A DNA stretch of 62,071 nt from Bryobacterales bacterium (GTDB lineage: Bacteria; Acidobacteriota; Terriglobia; Bryobacterales; Bryobacteraceae), in contig CANIIC010000002.1 of NCBI GenBank assembly GCA_947467395.1, forward strand, positions 1-62,071, in the 5' to 3' direction. A program made the translations under genes and the position numbers. Under the pieces are notes generated by a model. That model saw only the letters and a program-made list of their open reading frames with translations. It made no database searches and had not been told where the DNA came from. Position 1 is the first letter of the stretch; each line of letters starts with the position of its first letter. Below are positions 30,164 to 37,189 of the stretch, in pieces.

Positions 30164-30208
30164 GAAGGGGAAATTTCATGGTAGCACTCGCGCCCACGCG
30201 AAGAAATC

Positions 30209-30217
30209 TGTTATACT
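30209..30217 (+). promoter_or_regulatory. Extended -10 promoter of the his leader/operon
   Basis: TGT-TATACT is a near-consensus extended -10 element (TGn plus TATAAT-like hexamer). No convincing -35 box is visible 17 bases upstream, as expected when TGn substitutes for it. Transcription should begin about 7-9 bases downstream, at or next to the A of the leader ATG at 30226. On the other strand the same segment reads TATAAC and could serve trpC. Confidence 0.65.
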
Positions 30218-30225
30218 GCGATTTC

Positions 30226-30300
30226 ATGTTCGTCGCGCGCCATCATCATCTGCATCACGGCCATATTGGCCATGATTTGCCGCGACGGGCTCACTCGTAG
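30226..30300 (+). CDS. hisL: Histidine operon leader peptide
   Basis: A 24-codon reading frame, ATG to TAG, with eight histidine codons: three in a row, then two, then three more spaced singly (residues 6-8, 10, 11, 13, 16, 23). It lies directly upstream of hisI and of an intrinsic terminator. No Shine-Dalgarno sequence precedes it, and the extended -10 ends eight bases before the ATG, so it is probably read from a leaderless transcript. By analogy with gamma-proteobacterial his attenuation, ribosome stalling on the His codons would expose the antiterminator. Coding function is inferred from codon content and RNA folding. Confidence 0.85.
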   Translation: MFVARHHHLHHGHIGHDLPRRAHS

Positions 30301-30362
30301 TCATCTGACGCCAGTGAAGATTTCCAAGAGCCCGCCGGATCCCGGTGGGCTCTTTGTTTTTT
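30231..30362 (+). promoter_or_regulatory. Histidine attenuator with exclusive RNA pairings
   Basis: Three mutually exclusive pairings can be read. 1:2 is CGTCGCG (30231-30237) with CGCGACG (30281-30287), enclosing the His codons. 2:3, the antiterminator, is CGGGCTC (30286-30292) with GAGCCCG (30328-30334), helped by TCACT (30291-30295) with AGTGA (30313-30317), which shares two bases with it. 3:4 is the terminator at 30326-30362. A ribosome stalled on the first His codons (30241-30249) would cover segment 1, free segment 2 and favour readthrough; with charged tRNA-His the terminator forms. Confidence 0.82.
30326..30362 (+). terminator. Intrinsic terminator of the his attenuator
   Basis: A 13-bp stem, AAGAGCCCGCCGG against CCGGTGGGCTCTT with a single G-U pair and a three-base loop, is followed by a T-rich run (TGTTTTTT). 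It ends 14 bases before the hisI ATG, so it must be disrupted for operon expression. Confidence 0.9.
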
Positions 30363-30376
30363 GGGTATCTCAACAC

Positions 30377-30751
30377 ATGCAACTCGACTTTAAGAAACTC
30401 GACGGCCTCGTCGCCGCAGTAATCCAGGATTGGAAGACCGGTGAGGTCCTCATGGTGGGCTTCATGAACGAGGAAGCCTGGCAGAAGACGATCGAAACCG
30501 GCTTTGCCGTGTTCTACAGCCGCACGCGCAACAAGTTGTGGCTGAAGGGCGAAACATCCGGCCACAAGCTGGTGGTGAAAGAGATCACCACCGATTGCGA
30601 CCTCGATACGGTCCTTCTGAAGGTCGAGGCCTTGGGCCCGGGTGTGTGCCATGAGGGTTACCAGAGTTGCTTCTTCCGCACGCTCGAAAACGGCGAATGG
30701 AAAGTGAACGCCGAACGCAAGTACGATCCGAACGCAGTCTACGGGAACTAA
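30377..30751 (+). CDS. hisI: Phosphoribosyl-AMP cyclohydrolase
   Basis: A 124-residue enzyme opening the adenine ring of PR-AMP in histidine synthesis. The metal motif DCDLD (Asp73, Asp75, Asp77) and the zinc cysteines Cys74, Cys91 and Cys98 are all present. It lacks the HisE pyrophosphohydrolase domain that is often fused, and no hisE is seen in the window. The ATG at 30377 follows the attenuator T-tract closely and has no evident Shine-Dalgarno sequence. First structural gene of the his operon. Confidence 0.93.
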
Positions 30752-30756
30752 ATACG

Positions 30757-31626
30757 ATGAAACTGAAACTTGGCATCCCCAAAGGCAGTCTTGAAAATGC
30801 GACCGTCGACCTGTTCCGGCGCGCGGGCTTCCAGATCACGGTCAGCAGCCGCTCCTACTTCCCGGCGATCGACGATCCGGAAATCGAGTGCATGCTGATC
30901 CGCGCCCAGGAAATGGCGCGCTACGTGGAAGATGGCGTTCTGGACGCCGGCCTCACGGGCCGCGACTGGGTGGAAGAGAACAATGCGGACGTGGAAGCCG
31001 TCGCCGATCTGGTCTACTCCAAGCAAAGCTTCGGCAAAGTGCGCTGGGTGCTGGCCGTGCCCGAAGATTCTCCGGTGCAATCGGTGAAGGATCTGGAAGG
31101 CAAGATCATCGCGACCGAGCTGGTGGAAGCCACGAAACGCTACCTCAAGGCGAACGGCGTAACCGCGAAGGTTGAGTTCAGCTGGGGCGCCACCGAAGTG
31201 AAGCCACCGGTGCTGGCCGATGCCATCGTCGAAGTGACCGAGACGGGCTCCTCTCTGCGCGCCAACAAGCTCCGCATTGTCGAGACGCTGATGGAATCGA
31301 ACACGCAGCTGATCGCCAACAAGGCTTCGTGGGCTGATGACTGGAAGCGCCGCAAGCTGGAAGACATGAAGATGTTGCTCAACGGCGCGATCGCCGCACT
31401 GGGCAAGGTCGGCTTGATGTTGAATGTGGAGAAGCAAAATCTGGCGGCCGTACTCGCAGTCCTTCCAGCGTTGAAGAATCCCACCATCTCCAACCTCAGC
31501 CAAGGCGATTGGCTAGCGCTGAACACCATCCTCGATGAATCCACCGTGCGCACGATTATTCCTCGCCTGAAAGACGCCGGAGCGCAGGGCATCGTCGAAT
31601 ATCCGCTGAATAAGATCGTAATGTAA
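30757..31626 (+). CDS. hisG: ATP phosphoribosyltransferase, long form
   Basis: A 289-residue enzyme catalysing the first, feedback-controlled step of histidine synthesis. [22 protein letters not shown] begins the catalytic fold (the motif spans residues 5 onward), and [11 protein letters not shown] near residue 123 is the PRPP loop. The extra C-terminal domain of about 75 residues is the ACT-like regulatory part that binds histidine, so HisZ is not required. The ATG at 30757 is five bases after the hisI stop. Confidence 0.94.
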
Positions 31627-32852
31627 TGATTCGCATCCTGGACTACAAAGACGCGCGGAGCCTGGTGACGCGCAAAGCGCAAACGCTCGGTGATGCCGAG
31701 CGCGTGGTTGCGCCGATTCTCGAAGCCGTGCGCACACGCGGCGATGACGCGCTGCTGGAGTACGCGCGCAAGTTCGACAAGTACGAAGGCTCCAGCGTGC
31801 GCATCCCGATCGAAGGGAAGCTGACGCCGGAGTTCCAGAAAGCCGTCGAAACAGCAGCCACCAACATTCGCGAATACGCGCGGCTGCAACTGCCCGTGGA
31901 AAAGATGGTCGAATATCCGGACGGGCGCAGGCTCGGCCAGATTGTGCGACCGCTGGATTCGATGGGCGCCTATACGCCCGCTGGTCGCTATCCCCTGCCC
32001 TCCACGCTGTTGATGAATGTGATTCCGGCACAAGAAGCCGGAGTGAAGACCACCTGCGTGGCTTGCCCGAATCCCAGCGCGGAGATCCTGGGCATCGCCG
32101 CGTGGCTGGGAGTGACGCACTTCTTCCGCATGGGTGGCGCGCAAGCCATCGCGGCACTCGCCTACGGTACGGAGACCGTTCCGCGCGTCGACCGCATCGT
32201 CGGACCGGGTAACATCTACGTCGCCGCCGCGAAAAAACTGATCGCGGGCGAAACCGGCATCGACTTCGTTGCCGGACCGACGGAAATCGTGATCATCGCC
32301 GCCGAAGGCAACCCTCGCTGGATCGCGGCGGACATGCTAGCACAGGCCGAACATGATCTCGACGCCTCCGCGATTCTGCTCACGACCTCGCGCAAACTCG
32401 CCGAAGAAGTTTCAGCGGAGCTAGAGAAACAACTCGCGGTGCTTCCGACCGCGAATGTCGCGCGCCCTTCGATCGACAACAACGGCGCCATTGTGATTCT
32501 CGATTCCATGGCACAGGCTGTAGAGTTCTCGAATGCGCTGGCCCCCGAGCATCTGGCCCTGCACGACGACGCGCTGCTGCCGCAGATCCAAAATGCGGGT
32601 TCCGTGTTTCTCGGTCCGGCGAGCCCTGAAGCGGCGGGCGACTATGCCTCCGGCCCCAACCACGTGCTGCCGACCTCCGGCCAAGCTCGCCTGCGCGGTG
32701 GCCTGTCGGCTGCGGATTTCGTAAAGGTGGTCTCGGTGCAACAAATGACGCGCGATGCGCTAGCAAACCTGACGCCTGCGATCACCATGCTGGCGCGCGC
32801 GGAAGGTTTGGAAGCACACGCCCGATCGGTGGAGGCTCGTCAACATGACTGA
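31626..32852 (+). CDS. hisD: Histidinol dehydrogenase
   Basis: A 408-residue zinc enzyme oxidising histidinol to histidine in two steps. DRIVGPGNIYVAAAKK, GIDFVAGPTEI and LLAQAEHDLDASAIL-type strands are present, with the catalytic Glu/His pair in the APEHL segment (about residue 308). The start codon shares one base with the hisG stop, and the end overlaps hisC by eight bases. Confidence 0.95.
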   Translation: MIRILDYKDARSLVTRKAQTLGDAERVVAPILEAVRTRGDDALLEYARKFDKYEGSSVRIPIEGKLTPEFQKAVETAATNIREYARLQLPVEKMVEYPDGRRLGQIVRPLDSMGAYTPAGRYPLPSTLLMNVIPAQEAGVKTTCVACPNPSAEILGIAAWLGVTHFFRMGGAQAIAALAYGTETVPRVDRIVGPGNIYVAAAKKLIAGETGIDFVAGPTEIVIIAAEGNPRWIAADMLAQAEHDLDASAILLTTSRKLAEEVSAELEKQLAVLPTANVARPSIDNNGAIVILDSMAQAVEFSNALAPEHLALHDDALLPQIQNAGSVFLGPASPEAAGDYASGPNHVLPTSGQARLRGGLSAADFVKVVSVQQMTRDALANLTPAITMLARAEGLEAHARSVEARQHD

Positions 32853-33906
32853 AGGCCCGCAACCTCGCGAAGCAGTTCGTCAGATGGCCCCGTATCATCC
32901 GCCCACCGGCGGGCGAGCCGGGAAACTGCGCCTGGACTTTAACGAGAACACGGTCGGCTGCTCGCCGAAGGTGATTGAGGCGATCACGCAGTATCTGACC
33001 GCCGATCACCTCACCGTCTACCCCGAATACGTCGACGCGATGAATGAACTGGCCGCGTTCTTCAAGGTAAAGCCCGAAGAATTCGCCATGACCAACGGCA
33101 CCGACGAAGCCATTCAGGTGCTGGTGAACACATACATCGACGACGGCGACGACGTGCTGATCATGCGCCCGTCCTACGCGATGTACCGTTTCTATTCGGA
33201 AGTTGCCGGCGGCGTGGTTCGCGAGATGGAGTATCGTAAGGACGATCTCTCGTTCCCCATCGATAAGTTCCTGGACGCACTGCGCCCCGAAACCAAGCTG
33301 GTCATGTTGGCGAATCCGAACAACCCAACAGGCACCGGCATTAAGTTCGAAGACATTCGGTTGATTCTCGAGACTGCGCCCGACGCGGCGGTGCTCATCG
33401 ACGAAGCCTACTTCGAATTCTGCGGCGTCACCGCACTGCCGTGGATCAACAAGTATCCGAACCTATTCGTCAGCCGGACGTTCTCGAAGGTCTACGGCAT
33501 GGCCGCCATGCGCTGTGGCTGCATCTTCTCAAACAAAGACAACGTCGCCTGGATGCGCAAGGCACAGTCACCGTATAGCGTGAACATGCTGGCTGCGGTG
33601 GCCGCACGCGCCGCCGTTCGCGATTCCGACTACGTGGCACGCTACGTCGGCGAAGTGCTCGCCGCTCGCGAACTGGCGTACTTCGGCCTCGACAAGCTGA
33701 ACATCCCGTACTTCAAGAGCCAGGCGAACTTCATCCTCTTCCAGGCGGGCGACCGCGCCATCCCGATCCGCGACGCCCTGCGCGATCGTGGCGTCCTGAT
33801 TCGCGACCGCAGCTACGAAATACCCGGCTGTGTGCGTGTCACCATCGGCACCCGCGACCAAGTGCAGCGATTCCTCACCGAACTGGAGAGTCTGTGGAAC
33901 AAATAG
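32845..33906 (+). CDS. hisC: Histidinol-phosphate aminotransferase
   Basis: A 353-residue class II PLP aminotransferase. ANPNNPTGT and IDEAYFEFCG are cofactor-contact motifs and SRTFSKVYGMAAMR holds the Schiff-base lysine near residue 215. GTRDQVQRF near the C-terminus gives the substrate Arg. It converts imidazole-acetol phosphate to histidinol phosphate; the next gene encodes a phosphatase that could use that product. Overlaps that gene by 13 bases. Confidence 0.95.
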   Translation: MTEGPQPREAVRQMAPYHPPTGGRAGKLRLDFNENTVGCSPKVIEAITQYLTADHLTVYPEYVDAMNELAAFFKVKPEEFAMTNGTDEAIQVLVNTYIDDGDDVLIMRPSYAMYRFYSEVAGGVVREMEYRKDDLSFPIDKFLDALRPETKLVMLANPNNPTGTGIKFEDIRLILETAPDAAVLIDEAYFEFCGVTALPWINKYPNLFVSRTFSKVYGMAAMRCGCIFSNKDNVAWMRKAQSPYSVNMLAAVAARAAVRDSDYVARYVGEVLAARELAYFGLDKLNIPYFKSQANFILFQAGDRAIPIRDALRDRGVLIRDRSYEIPGCVRVTIGTRDQVQRFLTELESLWNK

Positions 33907-34568
33907 TCGTTTTCGACATGGACGGCGTGCTCGCCGAGGTGACCGAATCGTATCGCCAAGCGATCGTCGAAACCGTCGCGCATTTCACGCAACATCGCAT
34001 CGAGCGCGACTTGATTCAGGACTACAAGAATCAGGGCGGTTGGAACAATGACTGGGCGCTGTCGCAGAAGATCTGCCTGGACATGGGCGTCGAACTCCCT
34101 TACGAAACTGTCGTCGAGTACTTCAACGAAATCTTCATCGGTCCGAATCACGGCGACGGACTTATCTCGCGTGAGAGCTGGTTTCCGAAAGAGGGCTTTC
34201 TCGAACGGCTCGGCCAGCGTTACGGCCTGTCGCTGTTCACCGGACGCCTCAAGTACGAAGCGGACATCACATTGAAACGCTTCGCGCCGAACGTCTTGTT
34301 CGATCCGATGCTGTGCGCCGAGCACGTCGAAAAGGCGAAGCCTGCTCCAGATGGACTGATCGAGATTCAACGCCGTAAGCCAGGCGCGAAGCTCTGGTAC
34401 GTGGGCGACACCGTGGATGATGCTCGCTCGGCGCGCGCCGCCGGCGTGCCCTTCATCGGGATTGTCGCCAAGAATCACTCCACACGCGCCGACATCCTCC
34501 GTCTGTTCGACGAAGAGAAGGCGATCGCCGTCGTGGAAAACGTCAACGAAATCGAGGAATTGCTGTGA
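33894..34568 (+). CDS. HAD-family phosphatase within his operon (candidate histidinol-phosphatase)
   Basis: A 224-residue HAD subfamily I phosphatase with a helical cap. All four motifs are present: DMDGV (Asp8/Asp10), the Thr in FTGR, Lys in KAKPAPDG, and [10 protein letters not shown] near residue 172. It is translationally coupled on both sides (13-base overlap with hisC, four with hisB). No HisB-N, PHP-type or IMPase-type histidinol phosphatase is visible in the operon, and this is the step expected here. The enzyme family is clear; the histidinol-phosphate specificity is inference from position. GTG start. Confidence 0.75.
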
Positions 34569-35152
34569 GAACGGCCACCATCAAGCGAGACACCAAAGAG
34601 ACCCAGATCCAGGCGACACTGAAGATCGAAGGCAAGGGCAAGTACGACATCTCCACTGGCATTCGCTTCTTCGACCACATGCTGGAGCTGTTCACCAAAC
34701 ACGGCGGATTCGACCTGACGCTGAAGGCGAACGGTGATCTGGATGTGGATCAGCACCACACGGTCGAAGACGTCGGGATCGTTCTGGGGCAATTGTTCGC
34801 GAAGGCACTTGGCGACCGCAAGGGCATCAATCGCGCAGGTTACTTCGTGCTGCCGATGGATGAGACGCTGTGCGTCGTGGCTGTCGACATGGGCGGGCGT
34901 CCGGCGCTGGTGTACAAGGATCTGGTGCGGACCCGGCTCGTCGGCGATCTGCAGACGGAGTTGGTGCACGATTTCTTCGACGGCTTCGTGACGCACGCCG
35001 GTGCCAACGTCCATTGCAAGATTCTCTACGGGCGCTCAAACCATCACAAAATTGAAGCGATTTTCAAGTGCTTCGCGCGCGCGATGCGCTACGCTACATC
35101 GACCGACGCGCGCATGAAGGAACAACTCCCATCCACGAAGGGGCTCTTGTGA
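34565..35152 (+). CDS. hisB: Imidazoleglycerol-phosphate dehydratase
   Basis: A 195-residue monofunctional dehydratase. The two manganese-binding His clusters are visible: FFDHMLE plus [10 protein letters not shown] in the first half and [16 protein letters not shown] and SNHHKIEA in the second, as expected from the internal duplication of this family. There is no N-terminal phosphatase domain, consistent with a separate phosphatase upstream. GTG start in a GTGA overlap. Confidence 0.95.
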
Positions 35153-35748
35153 TTTCGGTATTCGATTACGGCGCCGGCAACCTTCAGTCGGTGCAGAACA
35201 CCTTGGGCGCGATCGGCGCACAGTACGAATTGATTCGCGATGCGGAAGCAGTGGAGCGCTCTCATAAGTTGATCCTGCCGGGCGTCGGCCATTTCGGCCA
35301 GATGCTGCGTGCGCTCGACACGCTGGGCGTACGTGACGCTATAGTCAATCGCATTCGAGTGGGTGTACCGTTCCTCGGGATCTGCCTGGGCTTGCAAGCG
35401 TTGTTTGAATCGAGCGAAGAGGCTCCGGGCGAACGCGGGCTCGGCATCTACCCGGGTGTCGTCAAGCGCTTCAAGGGCGATGTGCGCATCCCGCACATGG
35501 GCTGGAATCAGCTGAATAAAGTCGGCGAGAGCCGCATGATGCAGGGCGTGGGCGAACATCCCTATGTCTACTTCGCGAACAGCTACTACTGCCCGCTGAT
35601 CACCGAAACGTCGGCCACATGCGATTACACGCGCAGCTTCACTGCCGCTGTCGAAAAATACAACGTGTGCGGCGTGCAGTTCCACCCCGAAAAATCGGGA
35701 GCCGTGGGCCTGCAGATCGTGCGTAACTTTATCGAGAAGGTCTGCTGA
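35149..35748 (+). CDS. hisH: Imidazole glycerol phosphate synthase, glutaminase subunit
   Basis: A 199-residue class I glutamine amidotransferase that feeds ammonia to HisF. The nucleophile Cys79 sits in LGICLGLQ, and VQFHPEKSG provides the His/Glu of the triad. DYGAGNL at the N-terminus is family-typical. The GTG at 35149 overlaps the hisB stop and starts directly at the first strand. The stop shares one base with the hisF ATG. Confidence 0.95.
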
Positions 35749-36515
35749 TGCTAGCCAAGCGCATTATTCCGTGCCTGGACGTGACCGCAGGTCGCGTAGT
35801 CAAGGGCGTCAACTTCGTAAACCTGCGCGACGCAGGCGATCCCGTAGAGCTTGCTGCTCGTTATAACGAGCAGGGCGCGGACGAACTCGTATTCCTCGAC
35901 ATCACCGCTTCAAGCGACGATCGCGACACCATGGTCGACGTCGTGCGGCGCACCGCGGCCGAAGTATTCATCCCACTCACGGTGGGCGGCGGCATTCGGA
36001 GCATCGATGATGCTCGGCGCATTCTGCACGCGGGTGCGGACAAGGTTAGTGTCAACACGGCTGCAGTTCGCCGGCCGGAACTGATCACGGAACTCAGCGA
36101 AGAGTTCGGCGCACAGGCCGTCGTATTAGCGATCGACGCACGTCGACGGGCCGATGGCTCGGGCTGGAACGTGTACACGCGCGGTGGCCGCCACGACGAA
36201 GGCATCGATGCCGTCGAATGGGCTCGGCGCGGTGATGAATTGGGCGCCGGCGAAATTCTGCTGACTTCCATGGACACCGATGGTGTGCAAACCGGCTTTG
36301 ACTGCGCGCTCACCTCCGCGGTTCGCAAGGCCACACATATTCCCGTGATCGCTTCCGGCGGCGCGGGCAAGCTCGAAGATTTCTTTGAAGTGCTGGATGA
36401 CTCCGGAGCGGGTGCCGATGCGGCGCTGGCGGCCTCGGTCTTCCACTACGGCACGTATACCGTCGCAGATCTCAAGAAGTTCCTGGCGGAGAAAAAGGTT
36501 CCGGTTCGCGTATGA
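35748..36515 (+). CDS. hisF: Imidazole glycerol phosphate synthase, cyclase subunit
   Basis: A 255-residue TIM barrel. [15 protein letters not shown] carries catalytic Asp11, VLAIDARR the second Asp (about residue 130) and TVGGGIRS the phosphate loop. Forms the synthase with HisH, encoded just upstream. Overlaps hisA by four bases. Confidence 0.95.
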
Positions 36516-37189
36516 TCATCCCGTGTATTGACCTCATGGACGGCAAGGTAGTCCAACTTGTGCAGGGTCGCGACAAAGCGCTCGAGGGCGACGCGCCGCT
36601 CGAGATGTTGCGCAAGTTCGCCGCGTTCCCGGAGATCCAAGTCATCGACCTCGACGCCGCAATGGGCAAGGGCGAGAACAGCGATCTGGTGGAGATGCTC
36701 GCAACCAAGGCGCGCTGCCGCGTGGGCGGTGGCGTACGCACTCCGGAGCGGGCCAAGCGTCTCGTCGAACTGGGTGCGCATCGCGTGATCGTCGGCACGG
36801 CAGCATTCACTCCGGTGATCAAGGACATCGCCGCAGCCGTTGGTCCGGAGAAGATCCTGATTGCGCTCGACTCGAAGCACGGCAAGATCGTAGTGAAGGG
36901 CTGGCAGGAAGCCACGAACTTCACGGCGGAGGAGATCATCAACAGCCTGGAGCCGTATTGCGGTGGCTTCCTGTGCACTTACGTGGACAAGGAGGGCATG
37001 ATGCAGGGAACCGATCTCGATTGGTTCCGGCGCTTGCGTGCCGCCACCAAACACGAGATCACTGCGGCAGGTGGTATCACGACGATTGACGATGTCCAGG
37101 CACTGACACGCATCGATGTGCACGCGGCGTTGGGCATGGCCATCTACACCGGTCGCCTGGATCTGGCCGAACTAGCGAAGCTGCAGTAA
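36512..37189 (+). CDS. hisA: ProFAR isomerase
   Basis: A 225-residue half-repeat TIM barrel isomerising ProFAR to [18 protein letters not shown] has catalytic Asp7, VGGGVRT the phosphate loop and [13 protein letters not shown] the second Asp region. It is 10-20 residues shorter than many homologues but has both active-site halves. As last his gene it runs convergently into the phosphoglycolate phosphatase gene with an 18-base overlap, and no terminator is visible between them. Confidence 0.92.

Follow-up and report, generated by a model that had tools for sequence, protein, structure and literature searches.

A predicted ribosome-mediated attenuator of the histidine operon in Acidobacteriota

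Introduction

Attenuation of the histidine (his) operon is a textbook mechanism. Reports cover Proteobacteria and a few Firmicutes lineages, according to PMC9413887, and a 2010 survey (PMC2965389) states that, until the Firmicutes case it presents, leader peptide systems had been shown only in Proteobacteria and Actinobacteria. It describes predicted acidobacterial attenuators as almost without assigned functions. In a study of Actinobacteria, no RNA structure was seen to be conserved upstream of histidine operons (PMC1262725).

The DNA analysed here is a stretch of 62,071 nucleotides, hereafter the window, from an assembly of 4.07 Mb in 278 contigs. The region upstream of its hisI gene had been predicted to carry the full architecture of his attenuation in an apparent acidobacterial genome. 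The taxonomic part of this prediction agrees with the nearest named hisI relatives, which are mostly Bryobacterales MAGs of the Acidobacteriota. The best named hisI relative (L002, CALQCC020000041.1) is titled Bordetella parapertussis; it appears to be an acidobacterial MAG and coincides with a genome listed in the window's genus (G187). We asked if the region upstream of hisI encodes a his attenuator, and how far any such element extends within the phylum.

Results

A His-rich leader, alternative pairings and an intrinsic terminator precede hisI

The putative his operon begins with hisI and continues through hisA (Table 1), with the best families for hisA and the HAD hydrolase scoring below curated cut-offs. 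The 24-codon leader with eight His codons was located exactly where it had been proposed ahead of the operon. Its His codons are spaced 3+2+1+1+1, with six His in the densest stretch of eight codons; the His run occupies codons 6-13, and the stop codon lies at 30298-30300. The gene for TrpC is divergent from the leader, and the trp and his promoters probably share positions 30164-30225, since the trpC start codon is only 62 nt from the leader ATG.

Table 1 Features of the his leader region and downstream genes in the window
Feature	Position	Strand	Description
Extended -10 element	30209-30217	+	TGT-TATACT; pattern match; predicted transcription start ~30224-30226
Leader peptide ORF	30226-30300	+	24 codons, 8 His; translation MFVARHHHLHHGHIGHDLPRRAHS, then stop
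Segment 1	30231-30237	+	CGTCGCG; pairs with segment 2
Segment 2	30281-30292	+	30281-30287 pairs with segment 1, 30286-30292 with segment 3; overlaps last leader codons
Segment 3	30326-30338	+	5' terminator arm; 30328-30334 pairs with segment 2
Segment 4	30342-30354	+	3' terminator arm
U-tract of intrinsic terminator	30355-30362	+	TGTTTTTT; ends at 30362
hisI	30377-30751	+	NCBIfam NF000768 above cut-off; first gene 3' of terminator
hisG, hisD, hisC, HAD hydrolase, hisB, hisH, hisF, hisA	30754-37189	+	NCBIfam; remainder of putative operon

For the nearer relatives, a His leader was defined as a short ORF in which some stretch of eight codons holds four His or more. Among 4000 shuffled upstream regions, 14 reached this density, as did 86 of 4000 stretches drawn at random from these loci, some of which may contain the leader. 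Judged by these counts, the His-rich leader is not due to chance. Across the entire window, at the set thresholds, no other short ORF rich in a single amino acid was accompanied by a comparable terminator (next best hairpin, -10.5 kcal/mol), and no other amino-acid leader in the window was convincing.

The three pairings that had been proposed for the leader RNA were each found in place. Segment 1 and CGCGACG in segment 2 are exact reverse complements (pairing 1:2), as are CGGGCTC in segment 2 and GAGCCCG in segment 3 (pairing 2:3). Segments 3 and 4 form a terminator hairpin of 13 bp with a loop of 3 (-24.5 kcal/mol), followed by the U-tract (pairing 3:4), and only 25 nt separate the leader stop from the terminator. 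The fold of the entire leader was better than those of 200/200 shuffles (z -4.9). The idea that the terminator is a common genome-wide repeat was rejected: the pattern tried, to which the terminator in the window does not conform, was found once in the genome of the window, between two convergent ORFs.

The leader and terminator are conserved before hisI within the order

One of the 80 named hisI loci, L073, was dropped because it lacked upstream DNA; the other 79 and the window gave 80 upstream regions. A His-rich leader was present in 74 of these (the window and 73 of the 79 relatives). Five of the six regions that lack it are labelled Chthoniobacterales (L064) or Thermodesulfobacterium, Thermodesulfobacteriota or Desulfofervidaceae (L076, L078, L079 and L080), and the sixth, a Bryobacterales locus (L069), has a nine-codon ORF with only two His. 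Of the 74 leaders, 72 are separated from hisI by a terminator; the script reported a hairpin for all 74, and those of L068 and L070 were discounted by inspection for their unclear U-tracts. In these two loci control may be translational, or the switch may have decayed.

A covariance model, R1, was built from 44 of the 74 leaders. At an E-value of 0.001 it matched 174/200 genomes of the order, covering 74/75 genera, and at 1e-6 or better it matched 164/200; part of this recovery holds by construction, because R1 was trained on loci of the very order that was searched. R1 matches were not taken at face value. The top match lay before hisI in each of 13 genomes that were reopened, and 15 secondary matches in the same genomes (E 1.7e-6 or weaker) had no adjoining his gene; such weak matches, which can be plain terminators, are the only ones in 10 of the 174 genomes. 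The loss of His-codon enrichment or of the terminator in related genomes was to count against the original prediction. The upstream regions of these relatives instead retained both, and the full architecture that had been described, with leader, terminator and alternative pairings, is in place and conserved among relatives.

Conservation of the RNA rather than the peptide bears on whether the His-rich ORF could encode a small functional protein, for example one that binds metals or acts in trans, with the terminator merely ending its transcript. His runs are able to bind metals, which fits such a role. The peptide of a leaderless leader, peTrpL of S. meliloti, is described as acting in trans (PMC7298713). 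Among the leaders, however, peptide length and the other residues are highly variable, while the His run, the RNA segments and the location ahead of his genes are kept. Segment 2 is complementary to segment 1 as well as to the terminator arm, a double match that a role of the peptide alone would not need, and the leader peptide had no Pfam match. A small functional protein is therefore a highly improbable explanation.

The codons themselves bear on a different sensor. T-boxes govern his operons in other bacteria, as PMC9413887 describes, and the terminator could be controlled by a T-box or riboswitch that senses tRNA-His or histidine directly, leaving the ORF incidental. We consider this extremely improbable: no T-box, riboswitch or other Rfam family reached its gathering score in the window, and the matches listed for the region at E of 10 or less were far below the cut-offs. 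The short interval between leader stop and terminator also speaks against such a sensor, as does the conservation of the His codons as codons, CAT and CAC alike (256 and 185, respectively, in the 74 leaders). The reading that we prefer is that a ribosome translating the leader governs the terminator.

Segment 2 matches its own partners better than those of other genomes

The pairings were tested in 72 leaders, with L068 and L070 left out, and in an alignment, A1, of the same 44 leaders used for R1, which were hand-picked as alignable, a choice that favours conservation. On A1, 83.3% of cells were paired in 2:3, compared to 77.9% (sd 0.9) in shuffles, and the covariation score was 0.119 compared to 0.068, a score that kinship among the A1 sequences can inflate; 0/500 shuffles were as high for either measure. 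By both measures, pairing 2:3 exceeded every slid register. The number of pairs with changes in both partners was not raised (3, compared to 2.5 in shuffles, with 251/500 as high), and two slid registers have more such pairs than 2:3 itself. For the terminator, 3:4, no covariation was detected (the score was reached by 125/500 shuffles), because its core, GCCCGCC, is nearly invariant; terminator covariation was dropped as evidence.

In an own-versus-cross duplex test of 62 of the 72 leaders, retained after thinning (5000 permutations), 1:2 complementarity was far better within than between genomes (z -6.8, 0/5000). The preference was moderate for 2:3 (z -2.0, 116/5000) and absent for 1:3, a pairing outside the model that served as control (z +0.6). 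In the fixed alignment columns first proposed for 1:2, no covariation was found (271/500 shuffles as high). What stands of the proposed 1:2 is thus the complementarity of segments 1 and 2 kept within each genome, but its exact register is not conserved column by column. Taken singly, 30 of the 72 genomes reached p 0.05 against shuffles for 2:3 and 16 for 1:2, where about four are expected, so most single-genome cases are not significant alone. The protector pairing 1:2 is recognized by the own-versus-cross test, and the antiterminator 2:3 is mutually exclusive with the terminator, as in a classical his attenuator.

Measured back from the last base of the stop codon, segment 2 starts at a distance of 19-22 nt in 36/72 leaders and of 14-27 nt in 67/72, which places it within reach of a terminating ribosome. 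When Bryobacterales and 11 other families were compared as 12 groups, each group's own segment 2 and terminator arm matched better than exchanged ones, with 1.35% of permutations as good; family-specific 2:3 matching was not seen in f25, f45 or f47 taken alone.

The leader is probably transcribed from its own start codon

The original prediction overlooked what is probably a distinctive feature of this attenuator, a leaderless start. An extended -10 element lies upstream of the leader ATG (Table 1), at the usual distance for a transcript that would start at or just before this codon. With a TATACT consensus and spacing that were chosen after inspecting the sequences, at least five of six positions matched before the leader start in 64/74 leaders, compared to 114/1480 shuffles, and the box lay 7-9 nt before the start in 58 of those 64. 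TG was found one base before a hexamer of at least four matches in 64/74 leaders. The pattern TGNTATACT, followed by 7-9 nt and ATG, occurs twice in the window's own genome, once at the his leader.

Phylum-wide, TANNNT was located 6-10 nt before the start of 33/56 leader ORFs, compared to 90/2081 ATGs of the same stretches. TTGACA, at five or six matches and 15-19 nt further upstream, accompanied 23 of these 33; at four matches it was found for 27/33 leaders and 46/90 controls, a looser count that says little. The box at 6-10 nt was not found in f18 or in most f22 leaders. These comparisons suggest that the his leader is probably leaderless, that is, without a 5' UTR. Leaderless genes were predicted in 3/3 Acidobacteria genomes, at a mean of 13.3% of genes, in the data given by PMC3160421.

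His leaders with terminators occur in 12 families of Acidobacteriota

Across the phylum, R1 matched 76/396 genomes at an E-value of 0.001. All 25 of the matches that were opened adjoin his genes; 76/396 is probably an over-count, because weak R1 matches can be plain terminators and only these 25 were opened. As an independent route, HisG was found in 118/189 genomes, of which 10 were not fetched and two had less than 600 nt upstream, leaving 106. This route required, no more than 80 nt beyond a His leader, a hairpin of -10 kcal/mol or lower with a T-rich tail; leader and terminator so defined were present upstream of hisG in 41/106 genomes, compared to 0/106 reverse strands and 0/530 shuffles.

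The 41 genomes represent 12 families: f1 (2/2), f2 (18/18), f18 (4/4), f25 (4/4), f47 (3/3), f22 (4/10), and f6, f27, f34, f45, f57 and f59 (1/1 each). Leader and terminator were absent before hisG in f24 (0/14), f29 (0/6), f48 (0/5) and 21 further families of one to three genomes; for families such as f24, f29, f33, f35, f48 and f5 this is not proof of absence, because the stretch covered upstream of hisG was no longer than about 1.6 kb and another gene may come first in these families. In the two f16 genomes, a His leader was present but lacked a terminator that fits this definition. In f22 (L165, L167, L171, L173 and L176-L179) the architecture differs: leaders such as MQLSSLNIHLHHHHHVHHTRVL are located about 150-170 nt upstream of hisG, and their hairpins are weaker. 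In three genomes (G330 of f29, G309 of f16 and G156 of f54), HisG is much nearer to that of the window than is the HisG of their family mates, suggestive of contamination or operon transfer; the leader is present in G330 and G309.

Two arrangements of the element were informative. In G479 (L224, L225) the his genes are split, and hisI-hisG and hisD-hisC each have their own His leader and terminator. All four f18 loci (L156, L157, L161 and L215) contain two serial His-rich leaders before hisG, each with its own intrinsic terminator, with leader starts about 220-410 nt before the gene. Viewed as natural experiments, the split operon and the double leaders support the proposed attenuator role.

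This distribution also bears on whether the element arose in Acidobacteriota or was acquired from Proteobacteria by horizontal transfer. Both the type of mechanism and the genes regulated are shared with the proteobacterial leader, as a transfer would predict. The Rfam His_leader model (RF00514), with which a scan had been recommended at the outset, nevertheless did not reach its gathering cut-off in the window or in any of 199 Acidobacteriota genomes, where one weak match fell below it; as a positive control, E. coli and C. glutamicum matched among 14 control genomes, one of them over the cut-off. The presence of the element in 74/75 genera of the order, hisI as first gene, and the 12 families with leader and terminator likewise argue against transfer, which we regard as improbable.

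Discussion

The combined evidence indicates that the element is very probably a ribosome-mediated transcription attenuator of the his operon. The support is comparative throughout, and the start site, stalling, readthrough and response to histidine are what the sequences predict. RNA polymerase would start at the leader ATG or 1-2 nt before it, and a ribosome would load at the 5' end of the leader RNA. With ample charged tRNA-His, the ribosome would reach the stop codon and cover segment 2, the 3:4 terminator would form, and transcription would end before hisI. Ribosome coverage is described as extending up to 12 nt beyond the stop codon (PMC4833913), so a ribosome at 30298-30300 would be expected to hide segment 2. 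When charged tRNA-His is short, the ribosome would stall in the His run, covering or having passed segment 1, and segment 2 would be left free to form 2:3, which would block the terminator and allow the his genes to be transcribed. If no ribosome loads, 1:2 would form, 3:4 would be free to terminate, and the start region would also be closed.

A broader reading joins these observations, and we hold it as possible, a little short of probable. It takes his attenuation to be an old, phylum-level trait of Acidobacteriota, independent of the proteobacterial one and mostly leaderless. Segment 1 would be the ribosome landing site, 1:2 would both lock initiation and permit termination, and f18 would have two serial His attenuators before hisG that answer the same signal.

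The candidate attenuator is ordinary in mechanism, and its phylum is new as far as the literature was searched: no prior report of his attenuation in Acidobacteriota was found in the open-access literature searched, and an earlier prediction may exist. The well over a hundred natural variants provide material for defining the essential features of an attenuator, and the acidobacterial element lends itself to a test of whether its origin is old or convergent. If leaderless, it would also offer a simple setting in which to ask how translation begun at the very 5' end of an RNA stays in step with RNA polymerase.

The element shares with the E. coli and Salmonella his leader (RF00514) a run of His codons, the exclusive pairings 1:2, 2:3 and 3:4, an intrinsic terminator and a downstream his operon. 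The E. coli leader has one run of seven His codons, and the first gene of its operon is hisG. In contrast, the window falls below the Rfam threshold, its first gene is hisI, its His codons are spaced as 3+2+1+1+1, and it probably has no 5' UTR. The His-leaders of Firmicutes (Bacillus cereus group, Peptostreptococcaceae and Erysipelotrichales), as described in PMC9413887, similarly combine a His-rich peptide with a terminator and antiterminator before his genes and are missed by RF00514, but they occur in small lineages with 3-5 His codons in a row, whereas the acidobacterial element is order-wide. A probable leaderless start is shared with trpL (rnTrpL) of S. meliloti, whose transcript is described as beginning with the leader ATG (PMC7298713), and with the ilvBNC leader of C. 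glutamicum, which is treated as leaderless in PMC11857589; those leaders respond to Trp or branched-chain amino acids, whereas that of the window would respond to histidine and its start is predicted from the -10 box only. For f18, and not for the window, a parallel is the mgtCBR leader of Salmonella, which according to PMC3641672 contains two attenuators in one leader; two different signals are sensed there, whereas both leaders of f18 are His-rich.
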